From an uncultured Intestinimonas sp. (GTDB lineage Bacteria; Bacillota; Clostridia; Oscillospirales; Oscillospiraceae): a DNA stretch of 32,499 bases. The position numbers and the translations under genes are program-made. The notes beneath the pieces were generated by a model. The model ran no database searches. It saw only the letters and a list, made by a program, of their open reading frames with translations, and was not told where the DNA came from. Of the stretch, positions 7,769-30,425 are shown one piece after another (position 1 is the first letter of the stretch; each line of letters starts with the position of its first letter). Location of the stretch: the NCBI RefSeq assembly GCF_944387245.1, contig NZ_CALXEE010000020.1, positions 1-32,499 on the forward strand. Reading direction: 5' to 3'.

Positions 7769-9421
7769 TCAGGGCAGGCTGGCACTGGAGCGCTCCTGCG
7801 CGATGTTGAGCACATGGTCGCCGATACGCTCAAAGTCGGTGAGCATCTCAGAGAACAGAATACAGCCCTCATCGGAGCAAATACCTTTGCGCATCCGCTC
7901 CATCTGGTGGCGCCGGAAGCTGGCCGTCATGTCGTCCATCTTCTGCTCCAGGGCGGAAACCTCGCTGAGCCACTCCACCGGATTGGATACCACACCGCTG
8001 AGCTTCTCGATGGCTTTGCGGCTGACAGCCTCCATCTCCCGGATTTCTTCCTTTGCCTCCTCGGAGAAATGGACATCCTTCTCCTTTAGAATCCCGCTGT
8101 AACCACAGATGTTCATGGCGTGGTCACCGATACGCTCAATGTTGCCCGCGATCTTGAAATAGGCGCTTACCGCGGCGGAATCCTGCTCATTGGTCTCGTG
8201 GACGATCACATGGGAGATAAACTGGGAAATTTCCTTGTTGAGGAAGTCAATATATTCTTCCACCGACTCCTCCTTGGCCACCAGGGAGGGGTCACGGTCC
8301 AGTACCGCCCGGAAGGCGGTGGAGACGTTTTCCTTCGCCATGTCCAGCATGCGGTTGAGCTCCTGACGAAGCTGGCTGATATAGATAGCGGACTGACCGA
8401 TGGTACGGTCCTGATTGGCATTGATGGGAGTGAGGTAGGCCAGATGCATTCCCTCGTCCAGATCCTGCTTGCGCTCAGGCAGGATGCGCATAGCCGCCTT
8501 CACCATCCACTTGCCCAGAGGCAGCAGGAGCAGTGTTGTGACAATATTAAAGAGGGTGTGCATGTTGGCAATCTGGGAGGCGGGACTGTTGGGCGTGAGG
8601 CTCTCCACGAAACCCACCAGGGAGATCCCCAGGAGTGGGGTCACCAGGCACAGCGTGGTAAACAGAATGGTTCCAATGATGTTGAACATCAGGTGGATGA
8701 TGGTGGTCCGCTTGGCGTTGCGCCCGGTGCCCACCGAGGCCAGCACAGCGGTGATGCAGGTACCGATATTCTGGCCGAACAGGACATACACCGCACTGCC
8801 CAGTCCGATAACGCCACTGTTGGCCAGCGCCTGGAGGATACCTACAGAAGCGGAGGAGGACTGGATGAGGGCGGTAAAGAGTGCGCCGGCCAGGATACCC
8901 AACACAGGATTGGAGAACTTGGTCATCAGGTCCACAAAAGCGGGCATTTCGCGCAGGGGGACCATGGCTGCGCTCATCATGTCCATGCCGATAAAGAGGA
9001 CACCCAGGCCGCCCAGGATACTGCCATAGTGGTGGATCTGCGGCTTTTTCAAAAATACCATCATAGCCACGCCCAGGAAGGCGAAGAGGGGGGCCAAAGC
9101 GCCTACGTCCAGGGCGATGAGCTGTCCGGTGATGGTGGTGCCGATGTTGGCGCCCATGATGATCCACACCGCCTGGGTGAGGGTCATCATGCCGGAGTTA
9201 ACGAAGCCCACCACCATGACCGTGGTGGCGGAGGAGGACTGGATGACGGCGGTGATTACCGCGCCCACCAGCACGCCCAGCACCCGGTTGGCCGTCAGCT
9301 TTTCCAGGATGCTCTTCATCCGGTTGCCGGCCGCGGCCTCCAGGCCGGAGCTCATCATCTGCATTCCGTGCAGGAACAGCGCCAAGCCGCCCAACAGGCT
9401 CAGAATATTGGCAATACTCAT
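7769..9421 (-). CDS. Na/Pi cotransporter family protein with PhoU-like C-terminus
   Basis: A 550-residue membrane protein of the NptA/YjbB (SLC34-like) family. Two inverted family repeats are visible, each with the signature QSSSA: AVIQSSSATTVMVVGF (about residues 58-73) and ALIQSSSASVGILQAL (about 187-202). Hydrophobic helices fill the first 320 residues. The last 200 residues are polar and helical with repeated ER(I)GDHAMNI / ERIGDHVLNIAQ motifs, the PhoU-like metal/phosphate-regulatory module. It probably moves phosphate with Na+. The ATG at 9421 has AAAAAGGAG upstream. It has its own promoter and a long leader with an internal terminator (see those entries). Confidence 0.92.
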   Translation of the reverse strand: MSIANILSLLGGLALFLHGMQMMSSGLEAAAGNRMKSILEKLTANRVLGVLVGAVITAVIQSSSATTVMVVGFVNSGMMTLTQAVWIIMGANIGTTITGQLIALDVGALAPLFAFLGVAMMVFLKKPQIHHYGSILGGLGVLFIGMDMMSAAMVPLREMPAFVDLMTKFSNPVLGILAGALFTALIQSSSASVGILQALANSGVIGLGSAVYVLFGQNIGTCITAVLASVGTGRNAKRTTIIHLMFNIIGTILFTTLCLVTPLLGISLVGFVESLTPNSPASQIANMHTLFNIVTTLLLLPLGKWMVKAAMRILPERKQDLDEGMHLAYLTPINANQDRTIGQSAIYISQLRQELNRMLDMAKENVSTAFRAVLDRDPSLVAKEESVEEYIDFLNKEISQFISHVIVHETNEQDSAAVSAYFKIAGNIERIGDHAMNICGYSGILKEKDVHFSEEAKEEIREMEAVSRKAIEKLSGVVSNPVEWLSEVSALEQKMDDMTASFRRHQMERMRKGICSDEGCILFSEMLTDFERIGDHVLNIAQERSSASLP

Positions 9422-10571: not shown

Positions 10572-11165
10572 ATCAGTCGATGGGGTTGTCGGCCACGAAC
10601 TCCACAGCGGAGGCGAAGGCGTCACAGGCGGACTTACAGGCGGACTGGCTGCCGGTGAGCAGACCGCCGCCGAAGTTGGTCTCGCTGGGGGGCGCGTACA
10701 GCACGCACAGACGGACGTCGGCGGCCTTCAGAGCGGCATCGACGCCGTACATGGCCTCCAGAGGAGGAGCGATCAGGTAGGCGATAGCCTCGCCCTCCTG
10801 GATGCCGCAGGCCTCGGACAGGTAGGAACCGGTCCGGGAGATGCAGTGGGCGTAGTAGACAATGGTATCGTCCTCGTTGGCGGAGACGAAGTGGCACACG
10901 TTCTCAATCATGTCCACACAGGCGGCCAGGCCGGCCTTGGCCTCAGCGGGGTTGGGGGCGGCCAGGATGCCGATGATCTCACCGGCCAGCTTGGTGTTGG
11001 CGTTGGCAGCGCCGCCGTAGAAGCTCTTGGCGTAGGCCACGCGGCAGTCGGCCTTCTTGGTGGCCTCGTCCAGGGCGGTATAGGTCACATCATCGCAGTC
11101 GGCAGTGACCAGGGCCAGGGACTTCTCGCCGGGCTGCAGGCCCAGCTCCTTGGCCATATCAGGAG
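10572..11165. repeat. 594-bp near-identical repeat, copy 1 (orphan eutL)
   Basis: Aligned with 21434-22027, only two mismatches occur (10624 A versus 21486 G; 10642 G versus 21504 A). Immediately beyond 11165 the two genes show 12 differences in 58 bases. The abrupt boundary suggests recent gene conversion. Confidence 0.93.
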
Positions 11166-11223
11166 ATACGTTTGGGATCAGCTTGGTGGCCAGTACAGTT
11201 GCTTTCACAGGATCTCGTTTCAT
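10573..11223 (-). CDS. eutL: EutL shell protein, orphan second copy
   Basis: A 216-residue trimeric tandem-BMC (BMC-T) shell protein of the ethanolamine microcompartment. Family landmarks: SLALVTADCDDVTYTALDEATK, the AGEIIGILAAPNPAEAKAGL segment, SRTGSYLSEACGI, YLIAPPLEAMYGVDAALK and SETNFGGGLLTGSQSACKSACDAF. The length is the same as enterobacterial EutL. It differs from the operon copy (21435-22085) only at three positions within the first 20 residues (Lys7/Arg, Leu15/Ile, Ser20/Ala) and is otherwise identical in protein. It has its own TTGACA-17-TATAAT promoter and its own terminator, so it is transcribed separately from the main operon. It lies downstream of the adenosylcobalamin riboswitch RNA. 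Confidence 0.95.
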   Translation of the reverse strand: MKRDPVKATVLATKLIPNVSPDMAKELGLQPGEKSLALVTADCDDVTYTALDEATKKADCRVAYAKSFYGGAANANTKLAGEIIGILAAPNPAEAKAGLAACVDMIENVCHFVSANEDDTIVYYAHCISRTGSYLSEACGIQEGEAIAYLIAPPLEAMYGVDAALKAADVRLCVLYAPPSETNFGGGLLTGSQSACKSACDAFASAVEFVADNPID

Positions 11224-11298: not shown

Positions 11299-11327
11299 AT
11301 TATATCGGGTCACATCCTTTTTGTCAA
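11299..11327 (-). promoter_or_regulatory. Promoter of the orphan eutL
   Basis: On the minus strand, perfect TTGACA (11322-11327), 17-base spacer and perfect TATAAT (11299-11304). It is downstream of the riboswitch RNA terminator, so the orphan eutL is not under direct cis control of that riboswitch. Confidence 0.92.
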
Positions 11328-11370
11328 CGGAACACCGGCGTTCTGCCGCTTTTTTTGGCTCTTTCCGGTA

Positions 11371-11410
11371 AAAAAGCGGCGGAGTCATCCCTGCATCGGG
11401 ATGGCTCCGC
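11371..11410 (-). terminator. Distal terminator of the riboswitch RNA, with GATGCA loop
   Basis: On the minus strand, a 13-position stem (GCGGAGCCATCCC with GGGATGACTCCGC, 11398-11410 with 11379-11391) closes a GATGCA hexaloop and is followed by CGCTTTTTT. The loop is of the GANGCA type also seen in the eutG and eutA leaders. A second, mirrored repeat (GCCGCTTTTTT at 11345 with AAAAAAGCGGC at 11370) overlaps it. Confidence 0.85.
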
Positions 11411-11433
11411 TCTTCTCCACAGGCGGGTATTTC

Positions 11434-11497
11434 CTGGTATGGCCGGACCCACAGTGGCAGCTATGGGTCCTTGCCCTGCATCAGCTTGCCATACCAG
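11434..11497. repeat. Nested inverted repeat in the riboswitch RNA tail
   Basis: The outer arms CTGGTATGGC (11434-11443) and GCCATACCAG (11488-11497) enclose the inner arms GGACCCA (11445-11451) and TGGGTCC (11464-11470). Both stems are perfect, so any transcript across it will be strongly folded. Confidence 0.7.
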
Positions 11498-11532
11498 TTC
11501 CAAAGGGAGGTGAAGTTGGCCACCTGACACAT
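11461..11532 (-). CDS. Possible 23-residue small ORF in the riboswitch RNA tail
   Basis: ATG at 11532 to TAG at 11461 reads MCQVANFTSLWNWYGKLMQGKDP, with ordinary codons and a plausible amphipathic composition. No SD precedes the ATG, and the end of the frame overlaps the nested inverted repeat, so it may be chance. If translated it would be the only peptide encoded by the riboswitch transcript. I do not recognise it. Confidence 0.15.
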   Translation of the reverse strand: MCQVANFTSLWNWYGKLMQGKDP

Positions 11533-11583
11533 CGCATAAGGAGGAATGGCGGTTCGTCCCGTCCACCCTTTAGCGCCGACAAC

Positions 11584-11617
11584 AAAAAAGCCGTATCCCT
11601 CTTAAAAAGGATACAGC
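11584..11617 (-). terminator. Riboswitch-controlled terminator
   Basis: On the minus strand, GCTGTATCC pairs with GGATACGGC and is followed by TTTTTT (11584-11589). It lies about 70 bases after the aptamer, where the expression platform is expected. The 13 bases GCCGTTGCTGTAT containing its 5' arm also occur inside the aptamer (complement of 11778-11790), so the 3' arm could alternatively pair there. Confidence 0.8.
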
Positions 11618-11685
11618 AACGGCCCACTGGCTTTCGCCGTGGGAACTGCACCCTCCTAAGCGCGAGGAGGTCTCGTGTGCGCCAT

Positions 11686-11845
11686 ACACAGGCAGGTATT
11701 CTGACTTAGGCGTCCAAACGCGCTCCCCGCCTTCCCAGAGCTTTCTCTCCAGTGACCTAATGGGGACCACTTCGCCAATACAGCAACGGCTTTGCGCGGG
11801 ATTCTCACCCGACTTCCCTTTTGAGCTCGTCAAAGCACCTGTGTA
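11686..11845 (-). promoter_or_regulatory. Adenosylcobalamin riboswitch aptamer
   Basis: On the minus strand the RNA begins ACACAGGTGC and ends with the B12-box-like CAGAATACCTGCC followed by TGTGT. P1 forms from ACACAGG and CCTGTGT. The conserved core GGGAA...GGGTGAGAATCCCGCGC is present, as in the cobalamin riboswitch consensus. It senses the cofactor needed by EutBC. It has its own promoter and is followed by a terminator, not directly by a cobalamin transport gene. Confidence 0.93.
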
Positions 11846-11881
11846 CCACTTATGATTCAGTTGTCAGCTTGGCTTATATAT

Positions 11882-11911
11882 ATTATACTGGCCCTCTTGC
11901 CTCCTTGTCAA
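11882..11911 (-). promoter_or_regulatory. Promoter of the riboswitch RNA
   Basis: On the minus strand, perfect TTGACA (11906-11911), 18-base spacer and perfect TATAAT (11882-11887), so the predicted start is near 11875, about 30 bases before the aptamer. It sits just downstream of the eut operon terminator. Confidence 0.9.
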
Positions 11912-11923
11912 GGGGGCACATTC

Positions 11924-11967
11924 AAAAACGAAATGGACCCCGCCGCAGGCACTGCGGCGGGGTCCAT
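11924..11967 (-). terminator. Terminator of the long eut operon
   Basis: A 16-bp perfect stem (ATGGACCCCGCCGCAG, 11933-11948, with 11952-11967) closed by a 3-nt loop, followed on the minus strand by TTTCGTTTTTG. It lies 9 bases after the eutQ stop. Confidence 0.94.
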
Positions 11968-11976
11968 CTGAATTGG

Positions 11977-12414
11977 TTACTGCCAGTCGGCGGGGAAAAC
12001 AGTGTAGGCGTACTTGGCATAGTCGGGGGTGCTGAAGTGGATGTGGCTGCCCTTGGGGATGTAGATCACATCGCCGGCGTCGCCGCCTACCACACGACCG
12101 TCGATCTTGATCTCCAGACGGCCTTCCAGCACGATGTCCCACTCATCGTAGGTCAGGGTCCACTCAAAGTCGGCTCCATCGGAGAGTTCCATGATGCCGC
12201 AGCCCATGCGGGGGGCCTCCTCCAGGGTGGCCACGTCCTTGAGCTTGACATCGTTACGGCCCTCGAAGGGCTCCAGTTTCACGGTGGAGGTCTTGACGCC
12301 GATGACGCCGCTGGGGTCCACCTGCTTCTGGAAGTCGCACTTGCCGGTAGAGCCCGCCGCTTCGGCGATGACCTTTTCTACGATGCTGCGAATGAGTTCT
12401 TCACTTACGTTCAT
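11977..12414 (-). CDS. eutQ: EutQ, short cupin-type ethanolamine utilization protein
   Basis: A 145-residue EutQ homologue. The C-terminal half is the EutQ cupin barrel (TYDEWDIVLEGRLEIKIDGR, then GDVIYIPKGSHIHFSTPDYAKYAYTVFPADW). In Salmonella, EutQ is an acetate kinase needed during anaerobic growth on ethanolamine. The enterobacterial protein is about 230 residues, so this form is much shorter. The first 20 residues (NVSEELIRSIVEKVIAEA) form an amphipathic helix of the kind that targets enzymes to BMC interiors, linked to the cupin by a Gly/Ser/Thr stretch. It is the last gene of the operon. Confidence 0.88.
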   Translation of the reverse strand: MNVSEELIRSIVEKVIAEAAGSTGKCDFQKQVDPSGVIGVKTSTVKLEPFEGRNDVKLKDVATLEEAPRMGCGIMELSDGADFEWTLTYDEWDIVLEGRLEIKIDGRVVGGDAGDVIYIPKGSHIHFSTPDYAKYAYTVFPADWQ

Positions 12415-21433: not shown

Positions 21434-22027
21434 ATCAGTCGATGGGGTTGTCGGCCACGAACTCCACAGCGGAGGCGAAGGCGTCGCAGGCGGACTTACA
21501 GGCAGACTGGCTGCCGGTGAGCAGACCGCCGCCGAAGTTGGTCTCGCTGGGGGGCGCGTACAGCACGCACAGACGGACGTCGGCGGCCTTCAGAGCGGCA
21601 TCGACGCCGTACATGGCCTCCAGAGGAGGAGCGATCAGGTAGGCGATAGCCTCGCCCTCCTGGATGCCGCAGGCCTCGGACAGGTAGGAACCGGTCCGGG
21701 AGATGCAGTGGGCGTAGTAGACAATGGTATCGTCCTCGTTGGCGGAGACGAAGTGGCACACGTTCTCAATCATGTCCACACAGGCGGCCAGGCCGGCCTT
21801 GGCCTCAGCGGGGTTGGGGGCGGCCAGGATGCCGATGATCTCACCGGCCAGCTTGGTGTTGGCGTTGGCAGCGCCGCCGTAGAAGCTCTTGGCGTAGGCC
21901 ACGCGGCAGTCGGCCTTCTTGGTGGCCTCGTCCAGGGCGGTATAGGTCACATCATCGCAGTCGGCAGTGACCAGGGCCAGGGACTTCTCGCCGGGCTGCA
22001 GGCCCAGCTCCTTGGCCATATCAGGAG
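21434..22027. repeat. 594-bp near-identical repeat, copy 2 (operon eutL)
   Basis: Partner of 10572-11165, same orientation, two mismatches in 594 bases. The first 58 bases of the gene (22028-22085) lie outside the repeat and differ at 12 positions. Confidence 0.93.
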
Positions 22028-22085
22028 CCACGTTAGGGATGATCTTCGTGGCCAATACGGTTGCTCTTACGGGATCTCTTTTCAT
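21435..22085 (-). CDS. eutL: EutL shell protein, operon copy
   Basis: A 216-residue BMC-T shell protein with the same landmarks as the copy at 10573-11223 (TADCDDVTYTALDEATK, SRTGSYLSEACGI, SETNFGGGLLTGSQ). It lies directly between eutC and the eutM/eutK-like gene, the usual EutL place in a eut operon, so it is probably the original copy. GGGAGGAAATT precedes the ATG. Confidence 0.97.
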   Translation of the reverse strand: MKRDPVRATVLATKIIPNVAPDMAKELGLQPGEKSLALVTADCDDVTYTALDEATKKADCRVAYAKSFYGGAANANTKLAGEIIGILAAPNPAEAKAGLAACVDMIENVCHFVSANEDDTIVYYAHCISRTGSYLSEACGIQEGEAIAYLIAPPLEAMYGVDAALKAADVRLCVLYAPPSETNFGGGLLTGSQSACKSACDAFASAVEFVADNPID

Positions 22086-25878: not shown

Positions 25879-25908
25879 AAAAACAGGCAGCCCGAACACA
25901 CAGGGGCT
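25879..25908 (-). terminator. Intrinsic terminator in the eutW-eutA gap
   Basis: On the minus strand, AGCCC pairs with GGGCT (25904-25908 with 25889-25893), followed three bases later by TGTTTTTA. The 5' arm can alternatively pair with the GGGG run 10-15 bases earlier, giving a competing hairpin. This suits conditional read-through into eutA. Confidence 0.55.
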
Positions 25909-25929
25909 TTTTCTCTCCCCCGCGCATCC

Positions 25930-25943
25930 GAGCTGCGTCGCTC
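25930..25943 (-). promoter_or_regulatory. Candidate EutV-binding hairpin upstream of eutA
   Basis: On the minus strand, GAGC-GACGCA-GCTC: a 4-bp stem with a hexaloop of the GANGCA type, 22 bases before the eutA leader terminator. ANTAR proteins of the EutV group bind paired hexaloop hairpins with a conserved G at loop position 4. The second partner hairpin is not clear here. Confidence 0.4.
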
Positions 25944-25959
25944 TGTTTTCCGGCCGGTA

Positions 25960-27387
25960 TTACGTCACACTGGCCGCGTCTACGATTTGATTTTTGAAGT
26001 CAAAGGTCACATGGGTCCCGCCCGATCCCGATTCCACACTCAGATTCCCCCGGAGCTTATCCTTCACCATGGTCTGAACGATGGACAGGCCCAGCCGATC
26101 GGTGCGGACGTTCTCCACATCATAGCCGCTGCCGTTATCGATGACCTCGATGCGGGAATACAGCTCCCCGCGGGTCACCACGATACGGATCAGACCGCTC
26201 TCCCGATCCTGGAAGGCATACTGAAGGGAATTCTGCAGCAGCTCGTTGATGATGAGGGCCACCGAGGTGGCAATATCGGAATCTACCTTGAAGTCGTCCC
26301 CCTCCAGGGTGATATTCACGTCGAAGTGAGGGCGGGCAAAGTAGCGGACGGTATTGTTTTTGATGTTGAGGATGACCTCACCGATCTTTACCTGGTCCAC
26401 ACCGCTCTGTGCCAGCAGCTCATGGGTGGTGGCGATGGAGAGGATGCGGTTCATACTCTCGCCCAGGACCTTCCGGGTCTCCTCGTTGTCCGAGCGCCGG
26501 ACCTGGAGCCGAAGGAGGCTGGCGATGGTCTGGAGATTGTTCTTAACCCGGTGATGCATCTCCTTGATGGCCACCGATTTGAGGATCAGGGCCTTTTCCT
26601 GTTCTTTCTTCCAGGTGTTGTCCTGGATGACCACGGCAAAGGCCATGTCTTCACTCTCCAGCTGGATACGTTTCACGGAAAGGCTGTGTCGGCCCACGGT
26701 GATCTCAATGACCGAATAGCCCGACTGGTCGGCATCATCCACCGAGTCTACCAGGCGCACATTCTCGTAGATCTGACCCAGCGGGTCCTCTATGTAGCCC
26801 AGTTGACGGTAGAGATCCCGAGCCAGGGAGTTCCGAAAGGCTACAACGCCTGTCCGATCCACCATCAGCAGCGCCTCGTCGATGCACTCGGTGAGCCAGT
26901 TGTTGCTGCCCACCATGTGGCTCAGGGCGTTGGCGATCTGCTCGTAGCTCTGCTCGGAAAAATGGAGCCGTTCGCTGATCTGCCGCTGCTCATCCACCCG
27001 CTGCTCCCGGATGAGCACGCCAATGACCCGGTCGCCGGCGGTGTTCTTGATGGGTTCCACCGACTGGATGGTGCGGCCATTCTCCTGGGTCACAGCCTTC
27101 ATCTGTTTGGTGGCCACCCCCAACCGGAAGGTCCGGGCCACTGCGGGCTCGTTTTCCTTCCGGGCCAGGAGGCCCACCACGGTCTTTTTATAGGAGGACG
27201 GTACATAGGAGGGCTTCGCCTCGGCCACAACGATCGCGTCTCCATCCCAGGAGGGGCAGTCGATGAAAATATCGGCATCCTCCAGGTTGGCCAAGGGTTG
27301 GAGCACCGCACTCATACCCTGTATGGTGGCAATCTCCTCCTCTGTGAGGTCCGTATATTTTTTGCACAGCTCCCAGATGATGTCCAT
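25960..27387 (-). CDS. eutW: EutW sensor histidine kinase
   Basis: A 475-residue soluble kinase that phosphorylates EutV when ethanolamine is present. Domains: an N-terminal HisK_N-type sensor region (about 1-130), a PAS-like region (about 150-260), a HisKA_2 dimerisation box with EMHHRVKNNLQTIASLL (His278/279) and a HATPase_c domain with the N-box INELLQNSLQYAF and IEVIDNGSGYD. No membrane segment is seen, consistent with intracellular sensing. The start lies 3 bases after the eutV stop, so the pair is tightly coupled. Confidence 0.95.
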   Translation of the reverse strand: MDIIWELCKKYTDLTEEEIATIQGMSAVLQPLANLEDADIFIDCPSWDGDAIVVAEAKPSYVPSSYKKTVVGLLARKENEPAVARTFRLGVATKQMKAVTQENGRTIQSVEPIKNTAGDRVIGVLIREQRVDEQRQISERLHFSEQSYEQIANALSHMVGSNNWLTECIDEALLMVDRTGVVAFRNSLARDLYRQLGYIEDPLGQIYENVRLVDSVDDADQSGYSVIEITVGRHSLSVKRIQLESEDMAFAVVIQDNTWKKEQEKALILKSVAIKEMHHRVKNNLQTIASLLRLQVRRSDNEETRKVLGESMNRILSIATTHELLAQSGVDQVKIGEVILNIKNNTVRYFARPHFDVNITLEGDDFKVDSDIATSVALIINELLQNSLQYAFQDRESGLIRIVVTRGELYSRIEVIDNGSGYDVENVRTDRLGLSIVQTMVKDKLRGNLSVESGSGGTHVTFDFKNQIVDAASVT

Positions 27388-27390
27388 CTC

Positions 27391-27978
27391 TCACTGACCC
27401 CCGGACTTCATCAAGATGATCTCGGCTACCCGGCGCATGGACAGGTTCTTGGTCTGGCTGAGCTTCCGGATGTAGTCGTAGGCGTCCTGTTCGGTCATGC
27501 CCTCCTGGGCCATGACCTGACCTTTGGCCTTCTCGATGATGCTGCGGTTCTCCAGCCGCTCAGACACCTTCTGCATATCCTTTCGGAGCTTTTTCATGTC
27601 CTTGCTGCGGGCCACCGCCAGCTCAATGCTGGGGACCAGGGATTTCTCGTCGATGGGTTTGACCAGGTAACCGGCCACCCCAATATCTTTGGCCTGATCC
27701 ACGAATTCCCGCTCACTGTACGCCGTGAGCATCATCACCGTGTCAGCCAGGTTTTCTTCATATACAATCTTGGCTGCGGACAGGCCATCCAGCAGAGGCA
27801 TCTTGATATCCATGAGCACCAGGTCGGGCCGGCACTGCTTGCAGACCTCCACGGCGTCGAAGCCGTCGGCGGCCTCTCCGACCACCTGATAGCCCTCTTC
27901 CGCCAGCAGCTCCTTCAAGTCCATTCGGGTGATGGGTTCATCGTCGGCGATGACCACCCGGATCCCGTCCTTGTACAT
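27391..27978 (-). CDS. eutV: EutV response regulator with ANTAR antitermination domain
   Basis: A 195-residue RNA-binding regulator. The receiver domain (1-120) has the acidic pair Asp12/Asp13, phosphoacceptor Asp57 in LVLMDIKMP, Thr85 and Lys107. A helical linker leads to the ANTAR domain (about 135-190): ENRSIIEKAKGQVMAQEGMTEQDAYDYIRKLSQ, then MRRVAEIIL. Phosphorylated EutV dimers bind paired hexaloop hairpins in nascent leaders and prevent terminator formation. Candidate targets in this window are the eutG, eutS and eutA leaders. Confidence 0.97.
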   Translation of the reverse strand: MYKDGIRVVIADDEPITRMDLKELLAEEGYQVVGEAADGFDAVEVCKQCRPDLVLMDIKMPLLDGLSAAKIVYEENLADTVMMLTAYSEREFVDQAKDIGVAGYLVKPIDEKSLVPSIELAVARSKDMKKLRKDMQKVSERLENRSIIEKAKGQVMAQEGMTEQDAYDYIRKLSQTKNLSMRRVAEIILMKSGGQ

Positions 27979-28868: not shown

Positions 28869-28918
28869 AAAAAAGCTCCCACAGGATCAATCTTTTTCAG
28901 CATCAATCCCTGGGAGCT
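28869..28918 (-). terminator. Leader terminator of the eutS operon
   Basis: On the minus strand, AGCTCCCA and TGGGAGCT arms (28911-28918 with 28874-28881), with inner GGAT/ATCC pairs, are followed by a T6 tract. It lies about 30 bases before the eutS start, so the whole operon requires read-through: an EutV antitermination target. Confidence 0.88.
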
Positions 28919-29030
28919 CCATCGCTCGGCTCAAACACCTGCGTTTCCTATCGATCCGCGCTGCTTCCGGCACTAACGGCGCGCCTTCCGCCACTTTTAT
29001 ACAAAAGCATCTAAAATCGCATCAATGCTT
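28919..29030 (-). promoter_or_regulatory. 5' leader of the eutS operon
   Basis: About 110 transcribed bases lie between the promoter and the terminator. They contain a tandem pair of related segments (GTGGCGGAAGGCGCGCC and GTGCCGGAAGCAGCGCGG), the second with GAAGCA, and a GAGC...GCTC pair whose 3' arm overlaps the terminator's 5' arm. Exact hairpins could not be resolved by eye. It is a likely EutV-binding leader by position. Confidence 0.5.
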
Positions 29031-30305: not shown

Positions 30306-30363
30306 AAAAACAAAAAGCGCCCTGAACGCAGGATAAATCACATTGATTCCCCGTTCAGGACGC
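30306..30363 (-). terminator. Leader terminator of eutG
   Basis: On the minus strand, GCGTCCTGAACG pairs with CGTTCAGGGCGC (30352-30363 with 30317-30328; 12 positions with a G-U), followed by TTTTTGTTTTT. It lies about 50 bases before the eutG ATG. Confidence 0.92.
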
Positions 30364-30408
30364 TGCTTCGCATCCATTCCTTTGCTGACCGCCCACTGCT
30401 TCGCAGAC
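30358..30408 (-). promoter_or_regulatory. Dual GAAGCA-hexaloop antitermination element of eutG (EutV target)
   Basis: On the minus strand, two 6-bp stems carry the same hexaloop: P1 GTCTGC-GAAGCA-GTGGGC (30391-30408, some G-U) and P2 GGATGC-GAAGCA-GCGTCC (30358-30375, one G-U). The P2 3' arm GCGTCC is exactly the first six bases of the terminator's 5' arm, so P2 and the terminator exclude each other. This is the architecture of ANTAR-target RNAs. The loop has G at position 4, as published for ANTAR targets, but G rather than A at position 1. Confidence 0.8.
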
Positions 30409-30425
30409 GAATTCCAGCTATGGCA

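Follow-up and report, generated by a model that had tools for sequence, protein, structure and literature searches.

We sought to identify the product of an adenosylcobalamin (AdoCbl) riboswitch that lies 3' of eutQ, on the same strand as the eut operon, in a stretch of DNA from an uncultured Intestinimonas sp. (contig NZ_CALXEE010000020.1, 32,499 nt; this whole stretch is called the window). A sequence-only reading had suggested that the RNA itself is the product, an EutX/Rli55-type sponge for EutV. From the sequence evidence we consider it probable that this stand-alone RNA works like EutX/Rli55, as a candidate EutV decoy. Its parts, the loop class that it shares with the eut leaders, its co-occurrence with EutV in the genus and its antiterminator complementarity can be read directly from the DNA. 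The operon runs from eutG to eutQ (11977) on the minus strand, as do all features of the RNA given below, and contains eutV (27391..27978, minus strand) and eutW (25960..27387, minus strand). The former encodes a response regulator with an ANTAR domain (PF00072 and PF03861), the proposed ligand of the RNA, and the latter a sensor kinase (PF12282, PF07568 and PF02518). The genome of the window thus encodes both EutV and EutW, as in EutX/Rli55 systems. The best solved sequence for the eutV product was 6wsh/6ww6 (E 2.9e-60), which is E. faecalis EutV according to excerpts of PMC8934654. EutV paralogues of 37-44% identity occur in genome G001 (locus L049, 4211-7098) and genome G000 (locus L087, contig C51); in G001 two of these lie on either side of a second eutL, and an EutW-like kinase follows.

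The promoter of the stand-alone RNA (11882..11911) consists of TTGACA at 11911-11906, an 18-nt spacer and TATAAT at 11887-11882. It had been called perfect, and it does match the consensus at 12 of 12 positions. We aligned nine copies: that of the window, those of seven other genus genomes, and L027, a near-repeat of G004. TTGACA was invariant in all nine, TATAAT was present in eight and read TATGAT in the ninth, and the tail contained long conserved blocks. The aptamer, likewise as proposed, was recognised as RF00174 at 11674..11857 (107 bits, E 4.1e-26), and an Rfam search of 11300-11980 with E values up to 10 returned no other family above its gathering score. Another riboswitch of the same genome (L002, L021) is 82% identical to the aptamer over about 200 nt.

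Directly 3' of the aptamer lies a CCUCC...GGAGG hairpin (11651..11670) with 5/5 pairs, which shows no covariation because it is invariant in 12 sequences. It would sequester part of a putative antiterminator strand, GGGUGCAG (11646..11653), whose complement lies in the 5' arm of terminator 1 (11616-11609). Across 12 sequences, which represent three genera or more, 96 cells of this pairing were scored and 99.0% of them were paired, compared with 25-60% for slid controls. No pair had changed on both sides; the strand is invariant, and the evidence is therefore one of complementarity, not of covariation. Terminator 1 (11584..11617), predicted to be under AdoCbl control, is formed by a stem at 11617-11590 and a U-tract. 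Three of its nine stem pairs had changed on both sides in the 12 sequences, a count reached by 67 of 500 shuffles, while the number of cells with changes on both sides and the covariation score were reached by none of 500. Terminator 1 and the antiterminator strand are thus conserved, and they stand between the aptamer and the candidate EutV sites. Because of this complementarity, and because AdoCbl control has been described for EutX, we infer that the switch terminates when bound and reads through when free. From the U-tract of terminator 1 to the final terminator the distance is about 172 nt, in agreement with the roughly 170 nt proposed. The coordinates, with an inferred start site, predict a short RNA of ~290 nt and a long RNA of ~505 nt.

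The tail ends in the final terminator (11370..11410), with a stem at 11410-11379, the loop GATGCA at 11397-11392 and a T-run at 11375-11370; its fold has -24.4 kcal/mol and a z of -4.83, and the arrangement of terminator 1, tail and GATGCA-capped terminator is the one that had been described. The terminator scan did not list it, probably because its stem contains a mismatch and CGC precedes the T-run. The tail also contains the second GATGCAGGG that had been noticed (11482-11474), and within it an internal candidate EutV loop GATGCA (11477..11482) in a small hairpin. This internal loop is the weaker one because in the window it forms only a 3-bp hairpin with a 7-nt loop, and of the two, the better candidate for an EutV site is the apical GATGCA of the final terminator. 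The starts of the two loops are 85 nt apart, and the second is the terminator cap; the window's tail contains no close dual-hairpin EutV site. A scan of the window for paired A1/G4 hairpins found two sites only, both inside eutL copies on the opposite strand.

The small hairpin belongs to a predicted three-way junction (11434..11497), made of an outer stem, that hairpin with the internal loop, and a longer hairpin that presents the hexaloop CUGCCA (11455..11460). This is the local MFE fold (z -4.41), and 10 of its 22 pairs had changed on both sides among eight sequences, as many as in none of 500 shuffles, although the number of further pair types was reached by 249 of 500. When the whole of 11620-11360 was folded, the MFE fold differed in this segment; the junction is thus supported by covariation and by the local fold, but not by the larger one. 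CUGCCA is the most conserved hexaloop of the tail and is not of the EutV type. It sits on covarying stems in the riboswitch tails of the window, L098, L109 and L035, and a search by eye for a partner of this loop found none that was consistent. ORFs overlap the tail, for example one of 23 aa at 11532-11461. A coding tail was rejected because relatives differ there by single-base gaps and no ORF survives.

A search of 11 genus genomes matched nine, the window's own included. The match in G007 was only the aptamer of another riboswitch, and the transcript is present in eight of the 11. A covariance model of the tail, run with strict filters on 300 family genomes, matched four, all of them genus members and the window's own among them. 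In nine further loci (eight beyond the genus, one from the window's own genome), the single match of that model was to the CUGCCA hairpin in L035, at E 1.7. The exact bases of the GATGCA terminator cap vary within the genus, where by eye we saw 7-nt loops in G006 and G003 and other loops in G010, G004 and G008. For the internal loop, the invariant columns across the seven EutV-positive genomes with the tail (window included) are exactly G1, G4 and A6.

To see which loops EutV is likely to recognise in this lineage, we scanned the window and 18 loci for hexaloop hairpins with G4 that overlap a terminator; G1 and A6 were not required. In the window, the eutG leader (30313..30410, minus strand) has GAAGCA in both P1 and P2, the eutS leader (28869..28948, minus strand) has GCAGGT in P1, outside the G1/G4/A6 class, and GATGGA in P2, and the eutA leader (25879..25970, minus strand) has GACGTA in P1 and GACGCA in P2. 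In all three P2 overlaps the terminator. The eutA leader, a dual-hexaloop leader of EutV type, comes in addition to those contained in the sequence-only reading. Across the family, the P2 loops at eut leaders had G1 and A6 in 17 of 17 cases, and P1 loops were less uniform. Not included in this count are P1 hairpins that the scan also returned, two from eutA leaders and others from eutG leaders (one, in L106, probably so), and matches away from eutG, eutS and eutA were discarded as chance. In L113, L114, L115 and L122 the scan found no eut-leader P2; a looser look gave GATGTA in L114. As read from these leaders, the P2 code of eutG, eutS and eutA is here G1-N-N-G4-N-A6, and not the published A1/G4. 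The earlier proposal that the tail loops are of the same GANGCA type as the eutG hairpins thus stands as a code of the lineage (the eutG loops are GAAGCA), but this code departs from the published one.

For E. faecalis EutV sites, the published accounts, as excerpted, give loops with A1 and G4, and in excerpts of a later structure paper (PMC8934654) G4 is the sole base-specific contact and one hexaloop is the minimal site. We also looked at three distant EutV genomes (G617, G609 and G453; EutV identity 52-56%) with four leaders near eutV, whose P2 loops, AACGAA, AAAGAA, AATGGG and AACGGA, all have A1. L131 gave two more matches, upstream of eutV, which we left out of the leader count; one of them has A1. 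The EutV contact loops of these outgroups read SMNKRC, SMDKRC and SMSKRR, close to the SMNKRA of E. faecalis, whereas in the window's family the loop is mostly SQTKNLS, with variants. The positions were equated by pattern mapping with Met172 and Arg175 as these appear in excerpts of PMC8934654. By coordinates, no riboswitch lies close to eut in the three distant genomes.

We examined a fixed 260 nt beyond terminator 1 in 13 eut-linked tails, from which G009 was excluded because no EutV was found there, and L027 because it nearly repeats G004. At a stem of at least 5, GNNGNA was the commonest hexaloop class, with 10 of 39 hairpins in 7 of the 13 tails; at a stem of at least 6 the CUGCCA class leads it 8 to 7. 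Dinucleotide shuffles gave a mean of 0.35 GNNGNA hairpins, and none of 2000 reached 10. With a single tail from the window's genus, 9 of 26 hairpins belonged to the class, spread over 6 of the 7 tails, a set that is not strictly one per genus, since both L035 and G343 may belong to Flavonifractor. As terminators are lost on shuffling, natural controls were added, and these gave a milder contrast: GNNGNA accounted for 4 of 60 hexaloops on stems of at least 5 in 17 stretches (360 nt each) that follow other cobalamin aptamers, compared with the 10 of 39 in tails (Fisher 0.016). Among hexaloops on stems of at least 8 followed by a U-tail, GNNGNA made up 3 of 3 in tails and 0 of 62 elsewhere (Fisher 2.3e-5); the window's own terminator cap is not among the three, owing to a mismatch in its stem. 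Without the U-tail condition the counts were 6 of 14 and 23 of 556 (Fisher 2.3e-5); the 23 include hairpins of eut leaders. We defined the loop class from the leaders, although the sequence-only reading had already noticed GATGCA in the tail. As a candidate at the level of sequence, the proposed sponge was supported by this excess of the leader loop class over both shuffles and natural controls.

GNNGNA hairpins with a stem of at least 5 are lacking in six of the 13 tails. Five of the six come from genus members, in which by eye only 2-3 pairs close the internal loop (in G006 it exists only as a 7-nt loop), and the sixth, G013, has mismatched stems, likewise by eye. Tails of other genera present GACGCA and GAAGAA (G168), GAGGCA (G343), GACGAA and GTGGAA (L035), and GAGGAA (L036), and L033 has two perfect, close GGCGCA hairpins beyond its eutQ-adjacent riboswitch. 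The eutQ-adjacent cobalamin riboswitches of L033 (1740-2200) and L096 (G013) are of another build, with no own promoter evident by eye; in G013, two G-class hexaloop hairpins with mismatches were seen by eye behind the riboswitch. The G343 tail probably belongs to the eut locus of G343, a link drawn from similarity because the contigs are broken. That genome has 18 RF00174 matches at E <=0.001, several of them ~100 nt from a contig start. Further cobalamin riboswitches seemingly with no gene directly behind them (by eye) are L108 (G343, contig C205) and L118 (G040, contig C93). Neither has a GNNGNA hexaloop with a stem of at least 5 in the next 360 nt, and they were not counted as eut-linked.

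We next compared the presence of the tail with that of EutV, which was found in 8 of the 11 genus genomes. A loop-bearing tail occurs in seven of these eight and in none of the other three (Fisher 0.024, with related genomes treated as independent). The one EutV-positive exception is G007, whose assembly is 77% complete. In G002 and G005 (99% and 97% complete; no EutV found) the transcript was not found. G009 gave no EutV at E 1e-20, a lack that is not certain because that genome is only 81% complete. Its RNA keeps the promoter, the aptamer and the CUGCCA hairpin, while the candidate EutV loop and the CACCUC motif described below are absent. Also encoded in G009 is an EutB homologue (75% identity) of a type found in several EutV-positive genomes alongside a closer copy.

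These observations are consistent with the following mechanism. With AdoCbl bound, the CCUCC/GGAGG hairpin and terminator 1 would form and yield the short RNA, which lacks the EutV loops. With AdoCbl absent, GGGUGCAG would pair with the 5' arm of terminator 1, and transcription would read through to the final terminator. The long RNA would then display GNNGNA hexaloops, one within the three-way junction and one capping the final terminator, that would mimic the leader loops of eutG, eutS and eutA and bind phosphorylated EutV, so that eut antitermination would fail when the cofactor is absent. Ligand control, EutV binding and sequestration by the RNA are thus what the sequences lead us to expect. 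The sponge reading gains support because the tails share the loop class of the leaders, with the internal loop invariant at G1, G4 and A6; because G009, in which no EutV was detected, keeps the RNA but not the loop; and because outgroup leaders use A1 loops together with a different EutV contact loop.

Three other explanations were weighed against the decoy. If the RNA were an ordinary cis riboswitch, then transcription would read through the final terminator and AdoCbl would control the second eutL copy (10573-11223). In its favour, G000 and G006 have eutL next, in the same orientation, and G001 has it about 2 kb farther along. However, eutL has its own promoter beyond the strong terminator (11327-11299, 12 of 12 consensus matches), as had been proposed, and a cap loop, in contrast to a P2 antiterminator, is compatible with formation of the terminator. 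By eye, moreover, the next gene differs: G003 and G010 have one similar to the window's ORF 7769-9421, G008 and L027 a convergent rplT, G004 an infC-like ORF on that side, and further genomes others again. Since the downstream gene varies among genomes, which argues against an eutL leader, we consider control of eutL very unlikely. The two eutL copies of the window (10573-11223 and 21435-22085) are 97.8% identical in DNA; like the pair of G001 (96.6%), they are nearer to each other than to copies of other genomes, a pattern as in gene conversion or recent duplication, and the pair of G006 (90.9%) is not closer to each other. The RNA could also be a now functionless remnant, a riboswitch whose gene has gone elsewhere, as the absence of a conserved ORF in the tail would allow. 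But the promoter, the antiterminator complementarity and the tail helices are maintained, the helices with compensatory changes, and G1, G4 and A6 are invariant, which makes this explanation very improbable. The stand-alone character follows from the conserved promoter, the two terminators, the lack of a surviving ORF and the changing downstream gene, and at the level of sequence it amounts to a separate transcript with its own promoter. The suggestion that the RNA itself is the product was supported on these same grounds. By eye, an ORF lies behind each of five other riboswitches of the window's genome, and none behind this one.

The remaining explanation takes the tail to be a trans-acting base-pairing RNA under B12 control, in which CACCUC and CUGCCA would pair with Shine-Dalgarno regions or other sites of mRNAs and the GNNGNA loops would be secondary. 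CACCUC (11507..11512), which resembles an anti-Shine-Dalgarno sequence, occurs in 11 of 14 eut-type tails and 1 of 17 control regions, and the letters CTGCCA in 12 of 14 and 2 of 17. The CUGCCA hairpin, in addition, covaries strongly and persists in G009, a genome in which we found no EutV. On the other side, CACCUC is absent from G009, both motifs are missing in L033 and G013, and the match of the tail loops to the eut leader code would be left unexplained. We regard this explanation as unlikely. By eye, CACCUC (11512-11507) could also pair with GGAGGGUG 3' of the aptamer.

Returning to the EutV decoy, we offer a wider picture only tentatively, and are inclined to doubt it as a whole. In a family of gut clostridia, the EutV code may have been rewritten, G1 replacing A1 and A6 being fixed, alongside substitutions in the EutV contact loop where E. 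faecalis has Met172 and Arg175, so that EutV, three leaders and the decoy shifted together; the decoy would use single hexaloops, terminator caps included, and a second module (CACCUC and the CUGCCA hairpin) would give it another activity. In excerpts of a 2018 review (PMC5821096), the Clostridium eut loci are said to have EutV and no obvious associated riboswitch, and it is asked whether an EutX-like RNA lies elsewhere in the genome. The titles and abstract openings examined on EutV, EutX, Rli55, Intestinimonas and Flavonifractor contained no description of the stand-alone RNA, most subscription papers being outside this scope, and the word 'riboswitch' is absent from the main text of a Flavonifractor paper on two eut operons. 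The locus and its relatives supply concrete candidates for such an RNA in the family to which Intestinimonas and Flavonifractor belong. With a loop code in common, sequestration of EutV could be probed in vitro through A1/G1 loop swaps, and the matched difference in the EutV contact loop is a natural experiment on the choice of RNA by ANTAR proteins.

Cobalamin riboswitches of RF00174 upstream of genes share the same aptamer, whereas the stand-alone RNA has no following ORF. In ANTAR dual-hexaloop leaders (E. faecalis eutP; the targets of NasR and AmiR), P1 and P2 hexaloops with G4 occur together with an overlapping terminator, as in the eutG, eutS and eutA leaders of the window, but the first base of P2 is G in the window's family and A in those leaders, as it is in the distant EutV genomes. 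EutX of Enterococcus faecalis and Rli55 of Listeria monocytogenes, as given in excerpts of PMC5821096 and PMC8934654, are nearest to the RNA. Here the RNA lies at the 3' end of the operon after eutQ, its loops are G1..G4..A6 instead of A1..G4, one loop caps the final terminator in place of a close dual hairpin, and there are in addition the CUGCCA three-way junction and the CACCUC motif. The assignment to the EutX/Rli55 type holds for the aptamer, the promoter, EutV/EutW and the loop class, and fails for the close dual hairpin and the A1/G4 loops. What the RNA has in common with EutX/Rli55 is an AdoCbl aptamer, its own promoter, a terminator after the aptamer, EutV-type loops beyond that terminator and an eut locus with EutV/EutW.
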